From the NCBI RefSeq assembly GCF_014235875.1, contig NZ_JACJUK010000003.1, positions 310,001-374,000 on the forward strand: DNA of 64,000 nt, written 5' to 3'. A program made the position numbers and the translations under genes. Every line of letters begins with the position of its first letter. Within the stretch, counting starts at the first letter, position 1. Below the pieces are notes generated by a model. The model saw only the letters and a list, made by a program, of their open reading frames with translations. It was not told where the DNA came from and ran no database searches. Positions 1,331 to 16,379 of this stretch are shown here, one piece after another. The stretch is from Croceivirga lutea (GTDB lineage Bacteria > Bacteroidota > Bacteroidia > Flavobacteriales > Flavobacteriaceae).

Positions 1331-1781
1331 GTTTAGTTTTTTGTTTTTAAAGATAGTAGGATTACTCCAGTAACTGGCGCTCTACTACCAGAAGTATGAG
1401 TGCGTACCAAAAAAGCTTAGAATTTTGTAGTGTTCTTCTGCCTAAAAAATCTTAAAACCCCAGTTAGATTATAGGTAAACCTCAAATTACGGAAATCTGT
1501 TTTTTGTTTAGGGGGGATTGGTTAATTTGGGGGTACCGAAACCTATTATTAATCTCCCCCTTTTGTATTATTTATTTCTAAATGAAATTCAACGAAGACT
1601 CTAGAGTAAAACTTCCTGCAATACTGCATTTAACCCAACTTGGGTATACCTACATTTTTTTAAAAAATGCTGTTTAGGATGAAGAAACCTGTTAACCTTT
1701 TCAATATTTTTTTTCGAAGAACATTGACTTTAAATCTTTTGAACAATATCATTAATCTTTAAATTTTAGTATTTAACATAA
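1331..1781. other. Intergenic region between deaminase and hsdM
   Basis: About 450 bp between divergent genes. It holds an hsdR remnant at 1582-1677, described separately. An imperfect inverted repeat made of a G-run (1512-1520) and a C-run (1554-1560) could form a hairpin upstream of that remnant. No convincing TAnnTTTG promoter core is visible just before hsdM; the sequence TAATCTTTA near 1753 is the nearest thing and is imperfect. No RNA gene was recognised. Confidence 0.5.
1582..1677 (+). pseudogene. 5' remnant of an older type I restriction gene (hsdR)
   Basis: An ATG-initiated frame of 31 codons begins MKFNEDSRVKLPAILHL and continues QLGYTYIFLKNAV before a TAG stop. This closely matches the N-terminal signature of one family of type I restriction endonuclease R subunits (NEDSRVKIPAILHL followed by LGYxYLSLK), from memory of that family. 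It does not match the start of the intact HsdR encoded at 8737, so it is not a duplicate of the local gene. Only the very start of the protein survives; after the stop no further hsdR-like sequence is visible before hsdM at 1782. The simplest reading is that an earlier type I system stood here and was replaced or deleted when the present operon arrived. Confidence 0.7.
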
Positions 1782-3350
1782 ATGGCAAAACAAGAAAAAA
1801 CCAAATCCATAGAAGAAACATTATGGCAAGCCTGTGACAAGCTTAGAGGCTCTGTAGAATCAAGCGAATACAAACACGTTGTACTAGGTTTAATCTTCTT
1901 AAAATTTGCCAGCGATAAATTTGAAGAACGTAAAAAAGAGCTCATTGAAGAAGGAAAAGAGAAATATGTAGAAATGAAGGATTTCTACAATATGAAAAAT
2001 GTCTTTTTCTTAAATGAAAAATCTCGTTGGGAATACATAAAAAAATATGCAAAAGTTGAAAATGATGAGGTAGGAACAAATGCTACAAGAATAGATACTG
2101 CCTTACACAACATTGAAAAGAACAATCCTGCGCTTAAAGGTGCATTGCCAGATAATTATTTTTCACGATTAGGATTAGACAAAACCAAACTTGCATCGCT
2201 TATTGACCAAATAAGTGAAATAAACACCATTGCCGATAAACAAAATGATATTGTTGGTCGTGTATACGAATATTTTTTAGCCAAATTCGCTATCAAAGAA
2301 GGGAAAGGAAAAGGTGAATTCTACACCCCGAAAAGTATTGTAAATCTTATTGCTGAATTAATAGAACCTTATCAAGGTATTATTTACGACCCTGCTTGTG
2401 GTTCGGGGGGTATGTTTGTGCAATCGGTTAAGTTTATAGAAAACCATCACGGAAACAAAAAAGAGGTTTCTGTGTACGGGCAAGAATATACCAATACTAC
2501 GTATAAACTGGCAAAAATGAATTTAGCCATACGTGGTATTGCTGCCAATTTGGGCGAAAAAGCAGCCGATACTTTTGGAGCCGACCAACACCCAGATTTA
2601 AAAGCTGATTTTATAATGGCAAATCCACCTTTCAATCAAAAAGATTGGAGAGGTGAAAACGAATTAACGGATGACCCACGTTGGAGAGGTTATGATGTAC
2701 CTCCAAAAAGTAACGCCAACTACGGTTGGATTTTAAATATGGTATCTAAATTATCAGATAACGGTGTAGCTGGTTTTATATTGGCAAATGGTGCATTATC
2801 TGGTGGCGGTGAAGAATATAAAATACGTAAAAAATTGATTGAAAACAATTTGGTAGAAGCCATTGTCATTCTACCACAGAAAATGTTTTACACGACTGAT
2901 ATTTCGGTTACGCTTTGGATTTTAAATAATAACAAAACTGAAAAAACAGTCAACAAAGGAACGGAAACTAGAGAATACCGCTTTCGCGAAAGCGAAATAT
3001 TATTTATGGACTTACGCCAAAAAGGCGAGCCTTTTGAGAAGAAATATATACAGTTTTCAAATACCCAAATTGAGGATATTGCTAATACTTTCCATACGTG
3101 GCAGACTAATGAAGAAGCCTATGAAAACATTCCAGAATACTGCTATTCGGCTACCAAAGAGGAAGTGATTAAAAAAGACTACTCATTGGTACCAAGCAAG
3201 TATGTTGAGTTTGTAAACCAAGACGAAAACTTAGATTTTGACACCAAAATGACAGGTTTACAAACCGAATTAAAAGACCTTTTAGCACAAGAAGAAGCTT
3301 CTAAAACTGATTTGCAGAACGTTTTTAAAAGTTTAGGTTATGAACTATAA
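1782..3350 (+). CDS. hsdM: Type I restriction-modification, DNA methyltransferase subunit
   Basis: A 522-residue HsdM. Residues 8 to about 150 form the helical HsdM N-terminal domain (EETLWQACDKLRGSVE). The N6-adenine methyltransferase domain follows, with the S-adenosylmethionine motif DPACGSGGMF at 203-212 and the catalytic NPPF tetrad at 281-284. With HsdS it methylates adenine in both half-sites of a bipartite target, and with HsdR it forms the restriction complex. It is the first gene of the operon; the stop overlaps the hsdS start by 11 bp. A 16-bp perfect palindrome lies inside the gene at 2979-2994. Length and motifs are normal, so the enzyme should be active. Confidence 0.97.
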   Translation: MAKQEKTKSIEETLWQACDKLRGSVESSEYKHVVLGLIFLKFASDKFEERKKELIEEGKEKYVEMKDFYNMKNVFFLNEKSRWEYIKKYAKVENDEVGTNATRIDTALHNIEKNNPALKGALPDNYFSRLGLDKTKLASLIDQISEINTIADKQNDIVGRVYEYFLAKFAIKEGKGKGEFYTPKSIVNLIAELIEPYQGIIYDPACGSGGMFVQSVKFIENHHGNKKEVSVYGQEYTNTTYKLAKMNLAIRGIAANLGEKAADTFGADQHPDLKADFIMANPPFNQKDWRGENELTDDPRWRGYDVPPKSNANYGWILNMVSKLSDNGVAGFILANGALSGGGEEYKIRKKLIENNLVEAIVILPQKMFYTTDISVTLWILNNNKTEKTVNKGTETREYRFRESEILFMDLRQKGEPFEKKYIQFSNTQIEDIANTFHTWQTNEEAYENIPEYCYSATKEEVIKKDYSLVPSKYVEFVNQDENLDFDTKMTGLQTELKDLLAQEEASKTDLQNVFKSLGYEL

Positions 3351-4485
3351 GCGTTTAGGTGATTACATAAAAAGAATATCTGTAAAAAACACAGATGGTT
3401 TAGCAGAGATACTTTATGGAATTAATATTGATAAGTTTTTTATGCCTTCGGTGGCAAATGTAATTGGTACGGATTTGACAAGATATAAGGTAGTTTCAAA
3501 CAATCAATTTGCTTGTAATAGAATGCACGTTGGAAGAGACAAAAGACTGCCAATTGCACTTTCTGATAGAGATTACGATTTCATTGTTTCACCTGCTTAT
3601 GATGTTTTTGAAATTAATGATGTCAACGCATTATTACCAGAATACTTAATGATGTGGTTTACTCGTGAAGAGTTTGATAGAAATTGTTGGTTTCATACAG
3701 ATTCTGACGTGAGAGGTAAATTAGATTGGAATGCTTTTATGGATATGACGTTACCCATCCCATCCATAGAAAAACAACAACTAATAGTAGATGACTACAA
3801 CACGGTGACCAACCGCATACAACTCAACGAAAAAATAAACGCTAACCTAGAAGCTACTGCGCAAGCCTTATATAAAAAATTAGTGGCCGAAAATCAGTGC
3901 GAAGAATATTTATTAAAAGATTTGTGCTCATTTCAAGAAGGCTATGTTAATCCTTCTCAAAAATATCCCAATTATTTTGATGGAAATATAAAATGGCTTC
4001 GCGCTAATGATGTTAACGGAGGTTTTATTTTAAATACAAGTAGAACATTAACTGAAGAAGGCTTTGAAAGTGCAGGTGCCAGTGCATTACTTTTCGCACC
4101 GCATACTATCGTAATTACAAAATCAGGAACTATTGGAAGACTTGGTATTTTGAATGACTATATGTGTGGAAATAGAGCAGTGATAAATATTAAACCAAAA
4201 GAAGACAATAATTTACCTTTTATATTTTTCTCCTTAAAAAGTAGTTATAATGAGCTAATTGATTTGGCTACAGGTAGTGCTCAAAGGAATTTATACGTGC
4301 CAATTTTAGCAACAATGAAAATACAAGTACCAGACGAAGATGAGCTAACTAGTTTTTATTTAGTTTCTAAAAGTATTCTTAATTCAATTCAATTACAAAC
4401 TAAAGAAAACCAAACCCTCAAAGAACTACAAAGTCTGTTATTAGCTAAGATGACTCAAGTTGAACTTAAAACATTATCGTCTTAA
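3340..4485 (+). CDS. hsdS: Type I restriction-modification, specificity subunit
   Basis: A 381-residue HsdS with the usual two-half layout: a first target recognition domain (about 1-145), a central helical spacer (about 150-185, EKQQLIVDDYNTVTNRIQ), a second recognition domain (about 190-335) and a C-terminal helical arm (about 345-375, ENQTLKELQSLLLAKM). The recurring tail phrase 'LxxLxxxLLAKM' at the end is typical of the family. The two halves determine the two parts of the target; the sequence recognised cannot be predicted. The ATG at 3340 lies inside the end of hsdM. No inverted or tandem repeats that would suggest phase switching are visible. The TIR gene starts 3 bp after the stop. 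Confidence 0.95.
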   Translation: MNYKRLGDYIKRISVKNTDGLAEILYGINIDKFFMPSVANVIGTDLTRYKVVSNNQFACNRMHVGRDKRLPIALSDRDYDFIVSPAYDVFEINDVNALLPEYLMMWFTREEFDRNCWFHTDSDVRGKLDWNAFMDMTLPIPSIEKQQLIVDDYNTVTNRIQLNEKINANLEATAQALYKKLVAENQCEEYLLKDLCSFQEGYVNPSQKYPNYFDGNIKWLRANDVNGGFILNTSRTLTEEGFESAGASALLFAPHTIVITKSGTIGRLGILNDYMCGNRAVINIKPKEDNNLPFIFFSLKSSYNELIDLATGSAQRNLYVPILATMKIQVPDEDELTSFYLVSKSILNSIQLQTKENQTLKELQSLLLAKMTQVELKTLSS

Positions 4486-4488
4486 AAA

Positions 4489-5661
4489 ATGAAATATAAA
4501 TATCAACTCATAACATTAGGCTCAAACGTTCCTGAAAGACAAATAATTATTGACCAGATAAGGGAAGAATTAAGGAATCTCAAATTGCCTGAAGAGTTTA
4601 TTAAAGTTATTCCAGCATCTTCTATTGAAGATGAATATAAGGGTAACCAACCTGCATTTGCATTATATTTTGGAGACACTAATAGCGATTTTAAGGATTT
4701 AGATGTTACTCAAAGGCTTCTGAAAGATGGTACAATGATACTTCCAATCTTCTATGACAGTTTTGAAAATGATATTCCAAGCGTTTTAGAAAATCAAAAT
4801 GCTGTTAAATATTCAGAAAATGAAGTAAATAGAATTACTAATGTTGTCTTAGAAGCTTTTGAATTGTTACGAAGCACGAGAAAAGTATTTATTAGTTACC
4901 GAAGAGCAGAATCTACCGCTGTAGCTATTCAATTATACGAGGCTTTAGAAGCCTATAATTTTGATGTATTTCTAGATACGCATTCAATTCAGAAAGGAGA
5001 ACCCTTTCAAGATGAATTGTGGTATCGTATGACTGATTGTGATGTGATTGTGCTACTAAATACTCCTGGTTTTTTGGAAAGTCATTGGTGTAAAGAAGAA
5101 TTTGCAGAAGCAAGTGCTAAGCAAATAGGCATAGTACAATTGGTATGGCCAAATCATCAAATAAAGGATATAGACAAATCTTCTTATATAAGTTACCCAA
5201 TACAATTAACAGAAGATGACTTTGTCAATAACAGGTTAGATAGTACTGGTCGCTTTATTGAAGTAATGGTAGAAGGTGTGCTTACTGAAGTGGAATCTGT
5301 ACGCGCAAGAAATTTAGCAGCTAGACAAGATAATTTAATTACTGAATTTAGAAACATTGCAGAAAAGAATAATCGAAAGGTAACTGTACAACCTGAAAAG
5401 ATTTTAACAGAGGATTTACCGAATGGAGAACATATTATCTACATACCTACTATTGGTATCCCTCAATCTACTAGTTGTCAATCTGCCGAAATCAAAAAAG
5501 AGTTGATGGGATACGATGAAGTGTCTATACGATTGATATATGATGATTTGCGAATTCGTGATAAATGGTTGCAACATTTGGAATGGTTGAATGACAATTT
5601 CAAAAAGGATATAAAAACACTAAAAAAACAAGATTTTGAATTATGGCTACAAAAGGCATAA
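4489..5661 (+). CDS. TIR-domain protein with extra flanking domains
   Basis: A 390-residue protein with a canonical TIR domain in the middle (about 131-225). It opens with KVFISYRRAES, has the box FDVFLDTHSIQKGEPF at about 158-173, and ends with SHWCKEEF, where Glu204 is in the position of the catalytic glutamate of TIR NAD-cleaving enzymes. Residues 1-130 look like a separate alpha/beta domain (QLITLGSN, then DGTMILPIFYD) that may be a degenerate TIR or other Rossmann-type fold. Residues 235-390 form a third region with beta-rich (HIIYIPTIGIP) and helical parts that I do not recognise. It follows hsdS by 3 bp and overlaps the SLOG-like gene by 19 bp, so the two are probably translationally coupled. 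An NADase or nucleotide-signal-producing role in phage defence is inferred. Confidence 0.85.
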   Translation: MKYKYQLITLGSNVPERQIIIDQIREELRNLKLPEEFIKVIPASSIEDEYKGNQPAFALYFGDTNSDFKDLDVTQRLLKDGTMILPIFYDSFENDIPSVLENQNAVKYSENEVNRITNVVLEAFELLRSTRKVFISYRRAESTAVAIQLYEALEAYNFDVFLDTHSIQKGEPFQDELWYRMTDCDVIVLLNTPGFLESHWCKEEFAEASAKQIGIVQLVWPNHQIKDIDKSSYISYPIQLTEDDFVNNRLDSTGRFIEVMVEGVLTEVESVRARNLAARQDNLITEFRNIAEKNNRKVTVQPEKILTEDLPNGEHIIYIPTIGIPQSTSCQSAEIKKELMGYDEVSIRLIYDDLRIRDKWLQHLEWLNDNFKKDIKTLKKQDFELWLQKA

Positions 5662-6242
5662 AAAATATATTTCTATCTGCTAGTATTCCCTTGCCTAATA
5701 GAGATGTAAAGTATATAGAAACAGCAGACATTATTGCAATTCGTGACGCAGTTATTGCTCTGACAACAGTAGTATTGCCACATCATAGAATAATATGGGG
5801 TGGTCATCCCTCAATAACGCCATTAATTTATTACGTGATGCAAAAATTGGATATGAATATTCAAGAACACGTTACATTGTATCAATCAAAGTTATTTGAA
5901 AAGTTCTTTCCAGAAGATAATAATAAATTCGAAAATGTAATATTGACTGATATCATTGATAATAATAGAGACCTCTCTTTGCTTCATATGCGAGAAAGAA
6001 TGTTGAGTGAATCAGATTTTGCAGCAGGAGTTTTCATTGGAGGTATGGATGGTATTGAAGATGAATATAGAATGTTTAAAGAATATTACCCAGAAGCAAT
6101 ATTACTTCCTATAGCTAGTACCGGTGCGGCAACTAAATTAGTATATGAGAATTTATTTCCTCAAAACCTAAAAAACACTAGACTTGAAAAGGATTATGGG
6201 TATATGTCCTTGTTTCAGGATTTTTTAATGGATAAAATTTAA
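5643..6242 (+). CDS. SLOG-like Rossmannoid protein
   Basis: A 199-residue protein with features of the SLOG (SMF/DprA-LOG) superfamily: an early strand (NIFLSASIP), the phrase IIWGGHPSITPLI at about 50-62, which fits the glycine-rich nucleotide-binding loop, and a second loop FIGGMDGIEDEY at 131-142 with acidic residues that could contact a ligand. SLOG domains bind nucleotide-derived ligands; the SLOG domain of Thoeris ThsA senses a cyclic ADP-ribose isomer. Whether this protein senses a TIR product, or makes or cuts one, is not visible. There is no attached effector domain such as SIR2, which is unusual for a pure sensor. The start lies inside the TIR gene and the next TIR gene follows after 4 bp. 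The assignment rests on pattern recognition only. Confidence 0.6.
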   Translation: MATKGIKNIFLSASIPLPNRDVKYIETADIIAIRDAVIALTTVVLPHHRIIWGGHPSITPLIYYVMQKLDMNIQEHVTLYQSKLFEKFFPEDNNKFENVILTDIIDNNRDLSLLHMRERMLSESDFAAGVFIGGMDGIEDEYRMFKEYYPEAILLPIASTGAATKLVYENLFPQNLKNTRLEKDYGYMSLFQDFLMDKI

Positions 6243-6246
6243 AAGT

Positions 6247-6933
6247 ATGGCAAGAAAAGTATTCGTTTCATATAAATATTCTGACTCATTAGTACAAGAT
6301 TTAGATATATATGTAGACTCGATTTTTGGTAAAATAAAAATTGATACAACAGCAAGACATTATGTAGATGAAATTTCAAAGCATCTAACAGGTGATGACC
6401 ATATTTATAAAGGTGAAAATGATGATGAAAGTATGGAGAACTTGGCAGATTCTTCTATCAGTTCAAAATTAGGTGACAAGATTTTTGATAGTAGTGTTAC
6501 GGTTGTTTTGATTTCTAAAGGAATGAAGGAATCGTTTAAATCTGAAAAAGACCAATGGATTCCTTGGGAAGTTTCATATTCTTTAAAAAAGCAAACAAGA
6601 TTAGGCAGGACCAGTAGCACTAATGGTGTTATAGCCGTTATACTTCCAGATGAAAATGGAAGTTACGAATATTATATAACACGTGATAGCGAATGTAATT
6701 GTAGACAATTGAATACTCCTATTTTGTTTCAAATAATACGTGATAATATGTTCAATGTTAAAGAACCAAACAGAAGGGCTTGCAATGGCGGTTGGGTTTA
6801 CTCTGGCGATAGCTCTTATATTCAATCTGTAAAGTGGTCTGATTTTATAGTAAATCCTACAAAATATATTGACAAAGCAATAGAATTACGAGATAAGAAG
6901 GATGATTTTAACATTGTAAAAACAATTAGGTAA
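6247..6933 (+). CDS. MTH538-type TIR-like protein (ThsB-related family)
   Basis: A 228-residue protein of the MTH538/DUF1863 TIR-like family, to which the Thoeris protein ThsB belongs. The N-terminus RKVFVSYKYSDS at 3-14 is the family's first strand. A second conserved block runs DSSVTVVLISKGM at 81-93, followed by WIPWEVSYSL at 104-113, where Glu108 is the likely counterpart of the TIR catalytic glutamate. ThsB proteins sense infection and make a cyclic ADP-ribose-type signal; that this protein does so is inference. No ThsA gene is present in the window. It sits 4 bp after the SLOG-like gene and 3 bp before the DUF262 gene, so all are very likely on one transcript. Confidence 0.8.
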   Translation: MARKVFVSYKYSDSLVQDLDIYVDSIFGKIKIDTTARHYVDEISKHLTGDDHIYKGENDDESMENLADSSISSKLGDKIFDSSVTVVLISKGMKESFKSEKDQWIPWEVSYSLKKQTRLGRTSSTNGVIAVILPDENGSYEYYITRDSECNCRQLNTPILFQIIRDNMFNVKEPNRRACNGGWVYSGDSSYIQSVKWSDFIVNPTKYIDKAIELRDKKDDFNIVKTIR

Positions 6934-6936
6934 TTA

Positions 6937-8727
6937 ATGGCAAAATATAGCGTACACCAACAACCTGTAGAAACATTATTAAGTTGGATAAAATCTGGCG
7001 ATATCGCGATACCAGAAATACAGCGTCCTTTTGTATGGAAAGCTTCCAAGGTAAGAGATTTAATAGACTCTTTATACCAAGGCTATCCTGTAGGCTATAT
7101 TATTACTTGGCGCAACCATGATGTTAAATTAAAAAATGGAGAGTTATCTGCAGGTAAAAAAGTTTTAATAGATGGGCAACAGCGTATTACAGCCTTAACA
7201 GCCGCTATAGTAGGGCAACGTGTTTTAAACAAAAACTATAAAGAAATTAATATTCGTATTGCTTTTAATCCGTTAACTGAAGCTTTTGAAGTTTTAAATA
7301 AAGCCAAAGAAAGAAGTCCAGAATGGATTAACAATATCAATCCTATTGTAAATGATGAAATTTCTATTACCAAAGCCATTCGTCAATACCTAAAAGATAA
7401 CCCTGAGGCAGATGAAGATTTGGTTGAGGATAGAATAGAAAATCTTAAAAAAATAAAGAGTAAACAAGCTGGTATTATTGAGCTAGATGCCAGTTTAGAT
7501 ATAGATACAGTAACCGAAATTTTTATTCGTATCAATCAAAAAGGTGTGGTACTAAGTAATGCAGATTTTGTAATGTCTAAAATTGCTTCAGACGAGCAAT
7601 ACGGTGGTAACAAAATGCGCAAAATGGTAGATTATTTCTGCCGTTTATTGGTAGATAAAGGTTTCAACAAACATATTGTAGATAACGATACCAATTTTGC
7701 AGAAAGCAACTACTATAAAGCTATTAAATGGATGGCTACAGGTAATGACGACTTGTATTGCCCTGATTATATAGATATGCTCCGTGTGGCGTTCACTTTT
7801 AAATTTAGCCGCGGTAAGTTTAGTGATCTGGTCGCTTTATTATCTGGTAGAAATTTTGAAACCAGAACTTACGAAAATGAAATTGCAGCTGCCAGTTACA
7901 ATAGGCTTTCAGAAGGCTTAGAAGCCTTTGTTAACCAAACCAATTACCAAAGGTTTGTAATGATATTAAAATCGACTGGGTTAATAAGTAGAAAGCTTAT
8001 TTCATCACAAAACAGTTTAAACTTTGCCTACGCCTTATACCTAAAATTAAGGGATGAAGGAATGAGTGAACCAGAAATACAAGGTTATGTAAAAAGATGG
8101 ATGATATTATCCATTTTTATCGGTCGTTATTCAGGCTCAGCAGAATCTAGAATAGATGAAGATATCAAACAAATAAACACCAAGGGCATTGCAGCTTATT
8201 TGTTACAAATGGAGCAAGCGCATTTAGGAGAAGGCTTCTGGGATTTTGGTTTAATTAACGACTTGGAAAGTTCTAGTGTAAACAATAACGCCTATACCTT
8301 GTATTTGGCTGCTCAAGTAAATAGTAATGCCACAGCCTTCTTATCTAAATCAATGACTATTACTAGTCTTATTGAGCAACGAGGAGATGTTCATCACATT
8401 TTCCCTAAACAATACTTAATAGCCAACGGTTATCCGCAAAAAGCATACAACCAAGTAGCAAATTTTGTGTACACGGAGCAAGCAACTAATATAAAAGTAG
8501 GTAAAATGCCACCCGTAGAATACCTAAGCAAAATAGAAACCCAAATAAACGAAGGGATTAATGAAATTAGCACTATAGATACTAAAGATGCTTTACAAGA
8601 AAATATTAGAGCTAACGATATTCCGTCTTTTATTAAAGAATCAACACATCAAGATTACACAAGATTTTTAGAACAAAGGCGTAAGCTGATGTCTAAGAAA
8701 TTAAAAGCATATTACGAAAGTTTATAA
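6937..8727 (+). CDS. DUF262/HNH nuclease, GmrSD-like
   Basis: A 596-residue protein. The N-terminal DUF262 domain has its signature phrases PEIQRPFVW at 26-34 and IDGQQR at 78-83; in GmrS-type and SspE-type proteins this domain uses nucleotide hydrolysis or binding to gate cleavage. Near the C-terminus GDVHHIFPKQYL (His486, His487) is the DUF1524-type HNH motif, and Asn-rich text follows at about 505-520. This arrangement is that of fused GmrSD, a modification-dependent endonuclease, and of SspE. The substrate here is unknown; it could cut modified phage DNA that the type I enzyme cannot cut. It starts 3 bp after the MTH538-type TIR gene and ends 9 bp before hsdR. It is full length with no damage. 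Confidence 0.88.
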   Translation: MAKYSVHQQPVETLLSWIKSGDIAIPEIQRPFVWKASKVRDLIDSLYQGYPVGYIITWRNHDVKLKNGELSAGKKVLIDGQQRITALTAAIVGQRVLNKNYKEINIRIAFNPLTEAFEVLNKAKERSPEWINNINPIVNDEISITKAIRQYLKDNPEADEDLVEDRIENLKKIKSKQAGIIELDASLDIDTVTEIFIRINQKGVVLSNADFVMSKIASDEQYGGNKMRKMVDYFCRLLVDKGFNKHIVDNDTNFAESNYYKAIKWMATGNDDLYCPDYIDMLRVAFTFKFSRGKFSDLVALLSGRNFETRTYENEIAAASYNRLSEGLEAFVNQTNYQRFVMILKSTGLISRKLISSQNSLNFAYALYLKLRDEGMSEPEIQGYVKRWMILSIFIGRYSGSAESRIDEDIKQINTKGIAAYLLQMEQAHLGEGFWDFGLINDLESSSVNNNAYTLYLAAQVNSNATAFLSKSMTITSLIEQRGDVHHIFPKQYLIANGYPQKAYNQVANFVYTEQATNIKVGKMPPVEYLSKIETQINEGINEISTIDTKDALQENIRANDIPSFIKESTHQDYTRFLEQRRKLMSKKLKAYYESL

Positions 8728-8736
8728 ATGTAACGG

Positions 8737-11700
8737 ATGGGTCAAAAATTTACAGAAGCACAACTAGAAAATGTTTTTGGAGAGTTATTAGCAAATGAAG
8801 GCTATCCGCACCATTTAGGCACTACCCTAAATCGTGCAGAAGACGAAGTGATTTTGGAAGACGATTTACGTTTGTTTTTAGCTTCAAAATATGGCAGAGA
8901 AAACATTACTAGCACAGAAATAGACGGTATTATTTTACAATTAAAAACCTTGCCAGCTTCTGATTTATATGAAAGCAATAAACGTTTTATGCGTATGCTT
9001 TCTGATGGGTTTATACTAAAACGGGAAGACCCAAACCAAAAGGATATCTACGTACAATTAATAGATTTTTCTGGTTTAGAAAAACAAGTTCAGGGCGAAA
9101 ACCTAGAAACAATTAAAGTTTCAGAACCTGAACCTACCTTTGGCGATAACAACATTTATAAATTTGTAAATCAATTAGAAATTGTAGGTAGCCACAAACG
9201 TATTCCAGATGGTATTTTATATGTGAATGGTTTGCCTTTAGTGGTGTTTGAGTTCAAAACAGCTATTCAAGAAAACACAACCATCCATAACGCTTATGTA
9301 CAATTAACTACACGCTACAAGCGAGATATTCCGCAACTGTTTATATACAATACGTTTTGCGTAATAAGTGATGGCGTAAACAATAAAGCAGGTTCTTTTT
9401 TTGCACCTTATGAGTTTTATTATGCTTGGAGACGTGTTTCTGGATTAGCAAAAGATGTTGATGGCATAGATTCTATGTTTACACTCGTTCAAGGAATGTT
9501 ACACAAAAATCGTTTGCGAGACATTATTCGCAATTTCATTTACTTACCAGACAGTAGTAAAAAAGACGAAAAAATTGTGTGCCGTTATCCGCAGTATTAT
9601 GCAGCTAGAGCTTTGTACGAGAATATTAAACTAGCTCAAAAACCAGATGGTAACGGAAAAGGTGGAACCTATTTTGGTGCTACAGGTTGCGGAAAGAGTT
9701 TTACAATGTTGTTCTTAACGCGCTTATTAATGAAAAGCGAATATTTTAAAAACCCAACAATTGTTCTTATTACTGACCGCACCGATTTAGACGACCAATT
9801 ATCATCACAATTTACCAATGCAAAAAATTATGTTGGAGATAATGGCATTGTAAGTGTAGAAAGTCGTGACCATTTGCGAGAATTACTGCAAGGTTGTGAA
9901 TCTGGTGGTGTGTTTTTAACGACCATACACAAGTTTACCGAAGATTTAGAATTGCTCACAGAACGTACCAACGTCATTTGTATTTCTGACGAAGCACACA
10001 GAAGTCAAACCAATTTAGACCAAAAAATAAAAGTTACCGAAAAAGGGGTTAAGAAAACCTACGGTTTTGCAAAATACTTACACGATTCATTACCTAATGC
10101 AACCTTTGTTGGCTTTACTGGAACGCCCATTGATGCCACATTAGATGTATTTGGTAAAGTAGTAGATTCTTATACAATGACAGAATCTGTAAAAGATGAA
10201 ATCACCGTAAGAATTGTATATGAAGGACGAGCTGCAAAAGTGATTTTAAACAATAGCGAACTAGAAAAAATTGAGAAATACTACGAAGAAGCAGCCGAAG
10301 CTGGAGCCAATGAATATCAAGTAGAAGAAAGTAAAAAGCAATCGGCAAATATGAATGCTATTTTGGGTGACCCAGATGTGCTACAAAAAATTGCAGTTGA
10401 TTTTGTTAATCATTATGAAAACCGAATTAATGAAGGTGCAACTGTAAAAGGTAAAGCAATGTTTGTTTGCCCAAGTAGACCTATTGCTTACGAGTTTTAC
10501 AAAAACGTCATTGCATTACGACCAGAATGGGCAGAAATAAAACAAGCGGAAGACGGAGCAGAATTAACCGACAAAGAGAAACGAGAAATAAAACCAATGG
10601 AACGTGTTAAAATGATAATGACACGTGGAAAAGACGACCCAAAAGAACTGTATGAAGCTTTGGGTACAAAAGAGTATAGAAAAGAATTAGACCGTCAGTT
10701 CAAAAACGAAAAATCTAACTTTAAAATTGCCATTGTTGTAGATATGTGGTTAACAGGTTTTGATGTTCCTTTCTTAGACAGTATTTACATTTATAAACCT
10801 ATTCAACAACACAATTTAATTCAGACAATTTCTCGTGTAAACCGAAAATTTGCAGGAAAAAACAAAGGTTTAGTAGTTGATTATATTGGTATTAAAAAAG
10901 CTATGAATATGGCTTTAGCCAAATATGGAAAAGGCGACCAAGATAATTTTGAAGATATAGAATCGTCTTTAATTGTAGTTCGTAATCACTTAGATTTATT
11001 AGGTAAGTTCTTCCACAAATTTGACAATAGTAAATATTTTAATGGCTCTTCATTAGACCAATTACACACCTTAAATAAAGCAGCTGAATTTTCACAAGTA
11101 ACCAAAGAAGCTGAAACCCGTTTTATGGGCTTGGTTAAAAGGCTAAAAGCAGCTTACGACATTTGTGCAGGAAGTGAAAAGCTTACGCAAGAGGAAAGAG
11201 ATTACACGCATTTCTATTTAGCAGTTCGTTCTATCGTATTCAAATTAACTAAAGGTGATGCACCAGACACTGCTCAAATGAACGCAAAAGTGCGTGATAT
11301 GATTAAAGATGCCTTGCAAAGTGATGGCGTAGAAGAAATATTTAAACTAGGCGAAAACACAGAAGCTGAACAAGATATTTTTGATGATGATTATTTAGCC
11401 AAAATAGACAAGATAAAATTACCGAACACTAAAATTAAACTACTTCAAAAACTATTGGCAAAAGCCATTGGTGAAATGAAGAAAGTAAATAAGGTAAAAG
11501 GTGTTGATTTCACTAAAAAGATGGATGCTTTGGTAGCTAGATACAATGACAGAAGTGAAAACGACATTTTACGAAGTGAAGTTTACGAAGAAATGGCAGA
11601 AGCATTAACAGAGATGATAATGCAAGTTCGTGATGAATTTAAAGCAGGTGACAAGCTCGGTATTGACTTTGAAGAAAAAGCCTTTTATGATATTCTTTTA

Positions 11701-11949
11701 GAATTATGTGCTAAATATGATTTTACATATCCAGAAGACAAGTTAATTGAGTTAGCTAAGAAGGTAAAAGAATTAGTTGATAGTCAAGCAAAATTCCCTG
11801 ATTGGAGTAAACGAGACGATATTAAAGCAGCTTTAAAAGTTGGACTGATTCTACTCTTAGACGAATTTGGATATCCACCAGTAGAAAGAGACGAAGTTTA
11901 TGAAGAAATCTTCTCACAGGCGGAGAATTTTAAAAAACATTCCAGCTGA
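8737..11949 (+). CDS. hsdR: Type I restriction endonuclease, R subunit
   Basis: A 1070-residue HsdR. The N-terminal nuclease domain carries the PD-(D/E)xK core, with Asp near 159 and Glu172-x-Lys174 in VVFEFKTA. The translocase follows: Walker A GATGCGKS at 314-321, the DEAH box at 418-421, and a late helicase motif in TISRVNRKFAG. The C-terminal third (about 750-1070) is the helical domain that docks to the M2S core. It loops DNA past the bound complex using ATP and cuts at a distance from unmethylated sites. The ATG at 8737 agrees with the family (GQKFTEAQLENVFGELL). It is separated from hsdS by four accessory genes instead of adjoining it. It is intact, unlike the remnant at 1582. Confidence 0.97.
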   Translation: MGQKFTEAQLENVFGELLANEGYPHHLGTTLNRAEDEVILEDDLRLFLASKYGRENITSTEIDGIILQLKTLPASDLYESNKRFMRMLSDGFILKREDPNQKDIYVQLIDFSGLEKQVQGENLETIKVSEPEPTFGDNNIYKFVNQLEIVGSHKRIPDGILYVNGLPLVVFEFKTAIQENTTIHNAYVQLTTRYKRDIPQLFIYNTFCVISDGVNNKAGSFFAPYEFYYAWRRVSGLAKDVDGIDSMFTLVQGMLHKNRLRDIIRNFIYLPDSSKKDEKIVCRYPQYYAARALYENIKLAQKPDGNGKGGTYFGATGCGKSFTMLFLTRLLMKSEYFKNPTIVLITDRTDLDDQLSSQFTNAKNYVGDNGIVSVESRDHLRELLQGCESGGVFLTTIHKFTEDLELLTERTNVICISDEAHRSQTNLDQKIKVTEKGVKKTYGFAKYLHDSLPNATFVGFTGTPIDATLDVFGKVVDSYTMTESVKDEITVRIVYEGRAAKVILNNSELEKIEKYYEEAAEAGANEYQVEESKKQSANMNAILGDPDVLQKIAVDFVNHYENRINEGATVKGKAMFVCPSRPIAYEFYKNVIALRPEWAEIKQAEDGAELTDKEKREIKPMERVKMIMTRGKDDPKELYEALGTKEYRKELDRQFKNEKSNFKIAIVVDMWLTGFDVPFLDSIYIYKPIQQHNLIQTISRVNRKFAGKNKGLVVDYIGIKKAMNMALAKYGKGDQDNFEDIESSLIVVRNHLDLLGKFFHKFDNSKYFNGSSLDQLHTLNKAAEFSQVTKEAETRFMGLVKRLKAAYDICAGSEKLTQEERDYTHFYLAVRSIVFKLTKGDAPDTAQMNAKVRDMIKDALQSDGVEEIFKLGENTEAEQDIFDDDYLAKIDKIKLPNTKIKLLQKLLAKAIGEMKKVNKVKGVDFTKKMDALVARYNDRSENDILRSEVYEEMAEALTEMIMQVRDEFKAGDKLGIDFEEKAFYDILLELCAKYDFTYPEDKLIELAKKVKELVDSQAKFPDWSKRDDIKAALKVGLILLLDEFGYPPVERDEVYEEIFSQAENFKKHSS

Positions 11950-12055: not shown

Positions 12056-12445
12056 ATGATTACATCTAAGATTAAAGCTTCATTCCAAGAAGAATTTGGG
12101 TCTATCACTCATCTTTTCACCATTATTGAAGAGCCCTTAAGTTCACTTGCCGCTTGTACTAAAACACATGTGTATAACCCAGGAGTCTATGTGTTTGTGT
12201 TAGACAATCAGGTAATCAAAGTGGGGCGTCACTTAACCAATAGCAGAAAACGAGCATTGGAACATATAAGAGATAATACTTCTGGGAAAGGTGTTTTTCA
12301 AATGAAATCCTTAGCAGATAAACCTGAGACAAAAGTGATACTTTTTAATGTTTCTGACCCTAAAAACTACCATTGGGTAGCTGCTGTAGAAATCTACTTA
12401 GAAAATAAACTTGAACCATTGATTAAATCGGGTAGAACGGGTTAA
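12056..12445 (+). CDS. GIY-YIG-like nuclease domain protein
   Basis: A 129-residue single-domain protein. Residues 42-75 read like the GIY-YIG core: PGVYVFVLDN (Gly43-Val-Tyr45 for GIY), then IKVGRHL (Lys55-Val-Gly57 for YIG), then a run of basic residues RKRALEHI with His70. A glutamate in AAVEIYLENKLEP (Glu112 or Glu116) is a plausible metal ligand. The domain is found in small nucleases and in restriction enzymes. It lies 106 bp downstream of hsdR in the same direction, so it could belong to the island, but a separate promoter is possible. No partner gene is visible. Substrate unknown. Confidence 0.65.
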   Translation: MITSKIKASFQEEFGSITHLFTIIEEPLSSLAACTKTHVYNPGVYVFVLDNQVIKVGRHLTNSRKRALEHIRDNTSGKGVFQMKSLADKPETKVILFNVSDPKNYHWVAAVEIYLENKLEPLIKSGRTG

Positions 12446-14493: not shown

Positions 14494-14725
14494 AGAAGTG
14501 AAAGCGGTTTTGGATTTCTACTTTCGCAGGTATTACGACATTAGAAAAGGCTTTCAGAACGCTAAAGGTCATTTCGAACCGAAACGCAGTGAAGCGTGAG
14601 AAATCTAGTTTGTTCTTGGGATTTCTCAATCGGCTCGCGCCTCATATCGAAATGACACTAAACTCCTTCCTCTGGTTAGGGGAAGGTGGACTGGCGATAG
14701 TCAGGATGGAAAGGGTTGTGTATCC

Positions 14726-14956
14726 GATTCTTGAAATCTAACGAAGTCTTTGGTCCGCATCGTCCAGACCGTTTCCGATGTCATCGGAATACTCTTTGGA
14801 CGATTTCCCTCAACCTTCTCAAATACTTCTTGATTTACTACAAATCTGAAAATAGGCCGGGCTTCCCTTTAATTGACCACTGTCATTCCCATGAAAATGG
14901 GAATCTTTTAAAAAGCAATTCTTAGCGTAATGGATTCCTGCTTTCGCAGGAATGAC
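14726..14956. repeat. Long direct repeat, copy 1
   Basis: Begins GATTCTTGAAATCTAACG and runs through a nested imperfect palindrome around TTTCCGATGTCATCGGAA to a hairpin ending GGAATGAC. It is nearly identical over more than 200 bp to copy 3 at 15875-16096 and shorter and more diverged in copy 2 at 15564-15745. It can be read as an open frame, but that frame is copied with the repeat and has no start signals. Confidence 0.85.
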
Positions 14957-15563
14957 AAAACCACGACGAAAAGGTTAATGTGTGGTTTTCTTTACAGAAG
15001 AATACATTGAGAAAGCTCGGAATGGTACCTGTTCCGTGAAACGGAACGGCCGAGTTTCGAGATGGGTTTTACGTAGTAAAAATTCCTGCTGGAAAGTCTC
15101 CTTTCTTTTGCTTACCAGCGCTACATCTCGCACATAAAATTTAAAGATGCACTGCATTTTTAAATTTTAGTCGTTGGAGAGCAAAGAAAATGAAGAAAAC
15201 CAAGAGATTTCTCATTCGGCTCGCGCCTCATATCGAAATGACACTAAACTCCTTCCCCTAGTTAGGCCTGAGCTTATCTTGATTCAGTAGAAAGGTGCAC
15301 TGACGATAGTCAGGACGGAAGGGGTTGTGTATCCGATACTTTTTTCATTGCTATAGTGGATTCCTGCCTTCGCAGGAATTATAGCATTAGAAAAGGCTTT
15401 CCGAACGCTAAATGTCATTTCGAACCAAAACGCAGTGAAGTGTGAGAAATCTAGTTGGTTTTTTGTTTTTTGTCGATAAAGGTTGGCGACCGTAGGCGTG
15501 GTTGTGTATCCGATACTTTTTTCATCGCCAAAAAAGTATCCAAAAAGTCTAGGCTGATTTTAT

Positions 15564-15745
15564 GATTCTTGAAATCTATCAAAGTTGTTGGTCCTCATCG
15601 CCCAGCCCGTTTCCGATGTTATCGGAATACTCTTTGGACGATTTCCTGCTGCTATACCCAACTACTTCTTGATTTACTACAAATCTGAAAATAGGCCGGG
15701 CTCCCTTTAATTGACCACTGTCATTCAAATGAACATGGGAATCCA
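15564..15745. repeat. Long direct repeat, copy 2 (diverged, shorter)
   Basis: Same unit as at 14726 but with several substitutions (for example AAATCTATCAAAG in place of AAATCTAACGAAG) and lacking the last 40-50 bp including the terminal hairpin. The TTTCCGATGTTATCGGAA inner palindrome is retained with one change. Confidence 0.8.
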
Positions 15746-15874
15746 AAACATCAAAAGAACTCCTTCCTCTGGTTAGGGGAAGGTGGACTGGCGATAGTCA
15801 GGATGGAAAGGGTTGTGTATCCGATACTTTTTTCATTGCCAAAAAAGTATCCAAAAAGTCTAGGCTGATTTTCC

Positions 15875-16096
15875 GATTCTTGAAATCTAACGAAGTCTTT
15901 GGTCCGCATCGTCCAGACCGTTTCCGATGTCATCGGAATACTCTTTGGACGATTTCCCTCAACCTTCTCAAATACTTCTTGATTTACTACAAATCTGAAA
16001 ATAGGCCGGATTCCCCTTTAATTAACCTCTGTCATTTCGATGAAAATGGGAATCTTTTAAAAAGCAATTCTTAGCGTAATGGATTCCTGCTGGAAA
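15875..16096. repeat. Long direct repeat, copy 3
   Basis: Nearly identical to copy 1 at 14726-14956, including the inner palindrome and the phrase TTCTTAGCGTAATGGATTCC near the end, but continuing into the 16083 unit in place of the hairpin GCAGGAATGAC. The block of unit C plus this repeat is duplicated as a whole (14661 onward and 15759 onward). Confidence 0.85.
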
Positions 16097-16379
16097 GTGT
16101 GTTTTCTTTTGCTTACCAGCGCTACATCTCGCACATAAAATTTAAAGATGCACTGCATTTTTAAATTTTAGTCGTTGCACAATCAAAGAAAATGAAGAAA
16201 ACTAAGAGATTTCTCAATCGGCTCGCGCCTCATATCGAAATGACAAATCGTGAAGTTGGTTTCACTGTCATTCCAATGAAAATAGAAAGCTAAAAACATA
16301 AAAAAAACTCCCTCCCCTAGTTAGGGGAAGGTGGACTGACGATAGTCAGGACGGAAGGGGTTGTGTTTGGTAACTAAAT

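Follow-up and report, generated by a model that had tools for sequence, protein, structure and literature searches.

We analyzed a stretch of 64,000 nucleotides (nt) from the genome of Croceivirga lutea (RefSeq assembly GCF_014235875.1, contig NZ_JACJUK010000003.1, positions 310,001 to 374,000 of the forward strand), hereafter called the window, in which four genes lie between the specificity gene hsdS and the restriction gene hsdR of a type I restriction-modification operon. An annotation made earlier from the letters of the window (the original prediction) had described the four genes as a possible Thoeris-like signaling module whose composition was not known from any named defence system. 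Seven genes of the plus strand, in the order hsdM-hsdS-thcB4-thcA-TIR (228 amino acids, aa)-DUF262-hsdR, span positions 1782-11949 and are listed here together with the slot that holds the four genes.

1782..3350, + strand: hsdM, type I methyltransferase subunit, 522 aa (N6_Mtase 339.5 bits, HsdM_N 85.4 bits)
3340..4485, + strand: hsdS, specificity subunit, 381 aa (Methylase_S 78 bits)
4486..8736, + strand: hsdS/hsdR cargo slot of about 4.25 kilobases (kb), absent from the relative G044
4489..5661, + strand: thcB4, TIR protein with N- and C-terminal extensions, 390 aa (NF058526, PADLOC ThsB)
5643..6242, + strand: thcA, single-domain SLOG protein, 199 aa, likely signal receptor (NF058525, LD_cluster3)
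6247..6933, + strand: ThsB-type TIR protein, 228 aa, exchangeable, probable signal-maker (PADLOC ThsB, PDB 9vyl_A)
6937..8727, + strand: DUF262/GmrSD-like protein, 596 aa, apparently separate cargo of the hsd slot (GmrSD_N 115 bits)
8737..11949, + strand: hsdR, restriction subunit, 1070 aa (HSDR_N, SWI2_SNF2, T1RH-like_C; PADLOC REase_I 1273 bits)

The profiles of HsdM, HsdS and HsdR (Pfam, PADLOC) flank the block, and their presence together in one operon identifies a type I restriction-modification system, as had been proposed. Remeasurement also returned the block coordinates and the tight spacing described earlier, with overlaps or gaps of 3-9 nt between hsdS and hsdR. The overlaps measure 11 nt between hsdM and hsdS and 19 nt between the genes for the 390 and 199 aa proteins. 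The gaps measure 3 nt from hsdS to the gene for the 390 aa protein, 4 nt from the gene for the 199 aa protein to that for the 228 aa protein, 3 nt from there to the DUF262 gene and 9 nt from the latter to hsdR. Judging from this spacing, the seven genes most likely form one transcript. A scan of the window gave 44 promoter-like matches against a shuffled mean of 45.5, one of them directly before hsdM (1724-1752), and 10 terminator-like matches against 6.0 expected, all within coding sequence. A Bacteroidota-type promoter pattern with a fixed spacer had 0 matches against 2.5 expected, and an Rfam scan of the window at gathering scores gave no match.

The two genes behind hsdS were named by equivalog models of NCBIfam 20.0. 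The 199 aa protein matched Thoeris_type3_ThcA (NF058525) at 266 bits with a cut-off of 110, and the 390 aa protein matched Thoeris_type3_ThcB4 (NF058526) at 445 bits with a cut-off of 220; the latter also matched Pfam TIR_2 (59.8 bits) and PADLOC ThsB (437 bits). By these profile matches, the core block is a type III Thoeris, a named anti-phage system. Thus, the relation to Thoeris had been recognized correctly in the original prediction, and its statement that no named system has this composition was mistaken. The two predicted TIR proteins, with Glu204 and Glu108 in the catalytic positions, were likewise recovered, by the TIR_2 and ThsB_TIR profiles, and both residues are conserved. All 81 ThcB4 rows have Glu204, and Glu108 of the 228 aa protein is present in 54 of 55 rows of its family, where the rows for residue counts are those above score thresholds set in the script. 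The solved structures closest in sequence to the TIR domain of ThcB4 are SARM1 NAD hydrolases (E-value, E, 2.5e-5).

A pattern-based scan of GTDB species genomes with the ThcA alignment yielded 288 relatives, from which the best 80 by likeness to the window were kept. In these, thcB4 was located directly upstream of thcA without exception (80/80), and the 19-nt overlap of the window was observed in 49 of 80 loci, taking first possible start codons as gene starts. The pair was also present in each of the 12 plasmid loci read (29 plasmid records matched) and in 3/3 viral contigs. The three viral contigs, from IMG/VR and belonging to putative phages (L144, L145, L146), carry TIR genes in addition to ThcB4-ThcA. 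The genome of the window holds a single ThcA.

The 199 aa protein had been called SLOG-like, and a search against SLOG profiles had been suggested; this search gave a match of 217 bits to Pfam SLOG LD_cluster3 (cut-off 25). A profile of 60 ThcA sequences aligned with three ThsA SLOG domains of relatives over 142 columns (hhalign probability 93%, E 3.2e-7), and Arg117 and Glu141 of ThcA aligned with an Arg and a Glu present in 3/3 ThsA rows. ThcA thus stands alone as a protein homologous to the SLOG domain of ThsA, in line with the proposal that the SLOG part lies on a separate protein. The STALD profile, which describes the SIR2-linked SLOG domain, scored 24.3 bits on ThcA of G014 (cut-off 24) and 16.2 bits, below the cut-off, on ThcA of the window. 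No SIR2 domain was found by Pfam in the four-gene block and no STALD match in the window's genome at E 0.001, which agrees with the lack of a SIR2-type effector remarked upon earlier. A profile search of the PDB with 21 ThcA rows gave a best E of 0.031, to proteins other than SLOG, and reached chain 7uxt_B ('USG protein'), which is probably a ThsA, at E 0.19. The same search with the ThcA of the window by itself gave nothing better than E 0.28.

Arg117, Glu141 and the residues G133-G134-M135 of ThcA are invariant in 78 of 78 rows; three ThcA rows below the score threshold fall outside the 78, and the 60-row alignment displays the same invariant residues. This conservation is relevant to a reading in which ThcA acts as the effector, hydrolysing nucleotides in the manner of LOG enzymes, and ThcB4 is one more signal-maker. 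The kept residues would suit such an enzyme and are reminiscent of the Arg and the PGGxGTxxE motif of LOG proteins. The letters chosen by NCBIfam, an effector letter for ThcA and a TIR-protein letter for ThcB4, also point in this direction. However, the ThsA SLOG domain, taken as a sensor, has the same Arg and Glu in 3/3 rows and matches ThcA, whereas a LOG profile comparison was not significant. We thus consider an enzymatic ThcA of this kind unlikely. As a plain LOG enzyme, ThcA was rejected after comparison with the genome's own LOG protein (probability 0.5%, one-sequence template).

The third gene of the block encodes the 228 aa TIR protein, which displayed a weak match to Pfam ThsB_TIR (22.7 bits, cut-off 21.2) and a strong one to PADLOC ThsB (274 bits). 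Its residues 1-226 are related to PDB 9vyl_A, 'putative cyclic ADP-D-ribose synthase TIR1' (216 bits). The number in the name ThcB4 suggests that further TIR proteins, ThcB1-3, are to be expected in type III Thoeris. NCBIfam had no name for the 228 aa protein, and none of the names ThcB1-3 appeared among 13 accessory TIR proteins scanned, that of the window included. Between one and five additional TIR genes, of three kinds by profiles built here, were present near ThcB4-ThcA in 72 of 77 loci, a count that takes in weak matches down to about 20 bits. The 77 loci, none of them marked as short-flanked, are 12 plasmid loci and 65 genome loci, one of the latter being the partial locus L077, whose flanks measure just 2 kb. 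The accessory TIR genes vary in their own manner: compared with the window, L034 has a ThcB4 identical at 95% and a 228 aa TIR at 50%, and L072 has a ThcB4 at 47% and a 228 aa TIR at 89%. Exchange of TIR proteins independently of the core would be expected if interchangeable sensors fed a single receptor-effector core, and it points to the mechanism proposed below. In three plasmid loci (L009, L010 and L016), ThcB4-ThcA is located near a gene annotated as a CBASS cGAMP-activated phospholipase, and no cyclase is named in the incomplete gene table. Type III Thoeris may use this CBASS-type phospholipase as an additional effector.

The original prediction had asked whether the module occurs both inside and outside hsd operons, and both arrangements were observed. 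Among the best 80 loci, 21 are preceded by hsdM and hsdS and followed by hsdR, all in the same orientation, 3 have a partial set (L061, L077, L089) and 56 have none. In 15 loci of the last group, the flank on one side is shorter than 4.5 kb, which leaves 62 decidable loci with ThcB4-ThcA inside the same hsdS/hsdR gap in 21 and outside it in 41. The selection by likeness to the window makes it probable that the hsd-embedded share among all type III Thoeris is lower. The hsd genes were sought by likeness to those of the window (phmmer E 0.001), so that other hsd families may escape: L067 is counted as lacking them, yet hsd genes that match weakly lie at a greater distance upstream, and L089 is counted as partial with another hsd set before ThcB4. 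Near copies occur among the loci (L058/L060 and L079/L080; L109-L111 are identical), and L036, L038 and L043 are surely the same genomes as G172, G370 and G216. The 21 embedded loci span 14 named genera and five named families of Bacteroidota, and in 19 of them thcB4 starts at most 40 nt from the stop of hsdS. A separate genome search gave 11 matches including the window's genome, with 5 in hsd operons, one (G407) with hsdR downstream and the contig cut, and 5 with no hsd genes in the stretch read, two of which (G636, G645) are cut by contig ends. The hsdS genes of 23 hsd-embedded relatives were 21-44% identical to that of the window, as is usual for specificity genes.

On a tree of ThcB4 and ThcA (83 rows, quick method, long outlier branches), the hsd context has to change 12 times; starred branches force 10 of these changes, and the total falls to 10 when uncertain rows are omitted. 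Gains and losses are indistinguishable. The hsd label is more clustered than in shuffles (mean 20.9 changes; 0 of 500 as low), a clustering that near copies alone can cause. Comparison of protein identities with the window showed HsdM at 81%, HsdR at 82% and ThcB4 at 54% for L063, and HsdM at 72% and ThcB4 at 95% for L034. Over 276 pairs, identities correlated at 0.38 for HsdM-ThcB4 and at 0.61 for HsdM-HsdR; the correlation of ThcA-ThcB4 in the same table was only 0.39, which speaks against a simple reading of separate histories. As far as such identities can tell, the hsd genes and the Thoeris module have histories that are partly different.

The fourth gene of the block had been annotated as a GmrSD-like nuclease with an HNH domain and as a member of the module. 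Its GmrSD-like part was recovered as GmrSD_N (DUF262) at 115 bits, while the HNH part depends on an HNH-like motif, HHIFPK, read by eye; Pfam found no C-terminal domain. A partial match to HEC-05 was obtained (100 bits in 4 stretches), and the protein is plausibly a type IV-like nuclease. As to membership in the module, the distribution tells otherwise. The protein adjoins the Thoeris genes in the window, and copies of the window type, 75-82% identical, were observed in 6 of the 21 embedded Thoeris loci, which could have made it the missing effector of the module. However, no copy of the window type was detected in the other 15 embedded loci or in any of the 56 Thoeris loci outside the hsd arrangement, and the same 596 aa protein is present at full length in three hsd slots without Thoeris (L121, L124, L128). 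Its distribution tracks the hsd slot and not Thoeris; it is, by this pattern, an independent cargo, and as the Thoeris effector, a role that we regard as extremely improbable, it was rejected.

The slot was further surveyed through its restriction gene, covering this one HsdR family. In 299 genomes of the bacterial family, with at most two candidates scored in each, HsdR was matched at E 1e-100 in 42, and 24 matches were at least 57% identical. Three of the 24 carry Thoeris (G000, G014, G172), 19 were fetched, and G022 and G146 were left out because of a contig end at or near the gene. Two of the 19 fetched Thoeris-free operons have no cargo genes (L114, L115). In one of these, L114 of genome G044, the HsdR is 96% identical to that of the window and hsdS is directly followed by hsdR, leaving the slot empty. 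Alignment of the window with L114 by blastn was collinear over 1781-3876, 4353-4473 and 8734-11943, with 4474-8733 unmatched and the variable part of hsdS (3877-4352) likewise unmatched. The remaining 17 operons carry cargo genes, with ThcA in none of the 17 and a defence-type family, recognized by scan or through the blastp cluster of a scanned protein, in 15. The cargo of these slots was as follows.

L132 (G013:C19:337300-357200): CBASS with patatin, CD-NTase, E1-E2 and a 156 aa gene
L126, L127: AAA-TOPRIM with UvrD, Gabija-like (the AAA protein of L127 by cluster)
L118: reverse transcriptase UG39
L130: AIPR/AbiU with reverse transcriptase
L125: AAA_13, PDC-S06 (weak PrrC match, 31 bits)
L122: HerA
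L128: KAP
L129, L131: AbiEii (by cluster)
L116, L119, L121, L123, L124, L131: other AAA or AAA-OLD proteins
L117, L120: nothing above cut-off in the scans

In L132, a gene of the SLFN_AlbA blastp cluster is located between hsdM and hsdS. Genes for AbiEii, SLFN_AlbA, RhuM and PDDEXK proteins were observed behind Thoeris in some embedded loci. A decayed copy was found in G388 (L023, G388:C10), with ThcB4 99% and the start of ThcA 94% identical to the window. The equivalent of window positions 5835-8197 is missing there, so that ThcA and DUF262 are cut and the 228 aa TIR is removed, and hsdM, hsdS and hsdR remain. By these matches, the hsdS/hsdR gap is a place filled in relatives by many different anti-phage genes.

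The high variety of the cargo, and the decay in G388 with the hsd genes kept, would agree with mere neighbourhood, that is, with a gap that tolerates insertions and in which defence genes collect without any regulatory or functional link. This we find doubtful in view of the arrangement of the embedded copies: the same strand, the starts close behind hsdS in 19 of 21 loci and the minimum of 10 context changes in the tree together suggest selection for co-expression.

A closer link has also been considered, in which the nested Thoeris guards the restriction enzyme as PrrC does at EcoprrI, and an anti-restriction protein binding HsdMSR would release or trigger the TIR/SLOG response. According to excerpts of PMC2610378 and PMC12707154, PrrC lies within a type Ic locus and becomes active once the enzyme has been neutralised by a phage peptide, and an excerpt of PMC12255303 places DarTG2 in the same hsdS/hsdR gap. 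The many changes of hsd context on the tree and the cargo of L125, with its weak match to PrrC, are in favor of this explanation as well. It is nevertheless rather improbable, as such hsd genes are lacking next to the module in 41 of 62 decidable loci, showing that it is kept without hsd in cis (action in trans is possible). Moreover, the identities of module and hsd proteins disagree between relatives, and contact between Thoeris and HsdMSR is purely hypothetical.

We therefore favor, with a probability of about 0.62, the reading that a type III Thoeris and a separate DUF262 gene occupy the cargo slot of the hsd operon, most likely co-expressed with the restriction genes, and that the Thoeris works autonomously. 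Upon infection, the 228 aa TIR protein would produce an ADP-ribose-type signal from NAD+. ThcA, whose relation to the ThsA SLOG domain was found in the alignments, would bind this signal and switch on its constant partner ThcB4, the TIR domain of which would destroy NAD+, so that phage growth stops. ThcB4 and ThcA may thus jointly replace the SIR2-SLOG protein ThsA of type I Thoeris. The hsd enzyme would act as the first line, cutting unmethylated DNA, with Thoeris as the second line. The system in the window has open frames and conserved key residues, and is located, as far as the sequences indicate, in an unusual but recurrent place.

Several observations weigh against this reading. No further TIR gene was found near the pair in 5 of the 77 loci (L007, L102, L109, L110, L111), and the pair may not always be in need of a separate signal-maker. 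The assignment of ThcB4 rather than ThcA as the killing part is a guess from the constancy of ThcB4, and Arg117 and Glu141 would equally fit an enzymatic SLOG protein. A fusion of ThcB4 and ThcA was absent from the 92 loci searched, so that their contact is only proposed.

A bolder extension is that, in Bacteroidota, abortive systems have a dedicated loading dock in the gap of this type I family. Type III Thoeris would then be wired to HsdMSR, whose inhibition or overload by phage sets off the TIR signal, with ThcA and ThcB4 as a split SLOG-TIR effector. We consider this less likely still than the alternatives of guarding or mere neighbourhood. If true, the wired Thoeris would be a nucleotide-signaling counterpart of PrrC.

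Downstream of the operon, an open frame of 129 aa lies directly behind hsdR (12056-12445). It had no Pfam match at E 1 and, judged by eye, may resemble a GIY-YIG-type nuclease. Further downstream, positions 14511-16377 contain dispersed direct repeats (3 copies of 229 nt, 4 copies of 72 nt and others) and inverted repeats; the block looks like intergenic repeat elements.

The locus links a recently named TIR signaling system with a classical restriction operon, and does so in a repeated and orderly way. Related hsdR genes are accompanied by slots that are empty, filled with Thoeris, filled with other cargo or decayed, and these provide a natural set for distinguishing a guard from an independent second line. 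The constant parts of type III Thoeris (ThcB4-ThcA) and its exchanged parts (the other TIR proteins) narrow the search for receptor and effector.

Payne et al. 2024 reportedly found defences by their embedding. Among the papers listed by literature searches, none was found on the mechanism of type III Thoeris or on its nesting in hsd operons, from which we do not claim absence from print; the main text of PMC10889362 contains 0 mentions of Thoeris. Type III Thoeris was named in only one of the papers surveyed, where the phage protein TadIII targets it (PMC12390725). Summaries of types I, II and IV are given elsewhere (PMC12948488, PMC12847820, PMC11204291), PrrC and rlo inserts are known in type I loci (PMC2610378, PMC12707154), and the hsdS/hsdR site of DarTG2 is remarked upon as a possible recombination hotspot for defence systems (PMC12255303). 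Thus, the composition is known, and the recurrent nesting in the slot of a type I operon is new as far as the surveyed literature goes.

Among known systems, the block resembles type III Thoeris in that both named proteins score far above cut-off, are adjacent and are accompanied by a further TIR gene; it differs in having one further TIR (up to five in relatives) and in its nesting in the hsd operon. With type I Thoeris it shares the presence of TIR proteins and of a SLOG domain, the latter a homologue of the one in ThsA, but the block has no SIR2, its SLOG domain is a separate protein and the genome gave no STALD match at E 0.001. The RptR-RMS-DarTG-M48 island in the type I operon of enteropathogenic E. 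coli (excerpt of PMC12255303) likewise holds its cargo between hsdS and hsdR, but DarTG2 is a toxin-antitoxin cargo without TIR or SLOG. The rlo genes of Campylobacter jejuni (excerpt of PMC2610378) and the 'guilt-by-embedding' candidates (HEC, PDC) are also inserts in type I or other defence operons, but belong to protein families other than those of the window. Finally, the prr locus, with PrrC and EcoprrI, similarly has a defence gene within a type I locus (excerpts of PMC2610378 and PMC12707154), but there the restriction enzyme keeps PrrC, an anticodon nuclease, silent, whereas the tie of the window's Thoeris to its enzyme is hypothetical.

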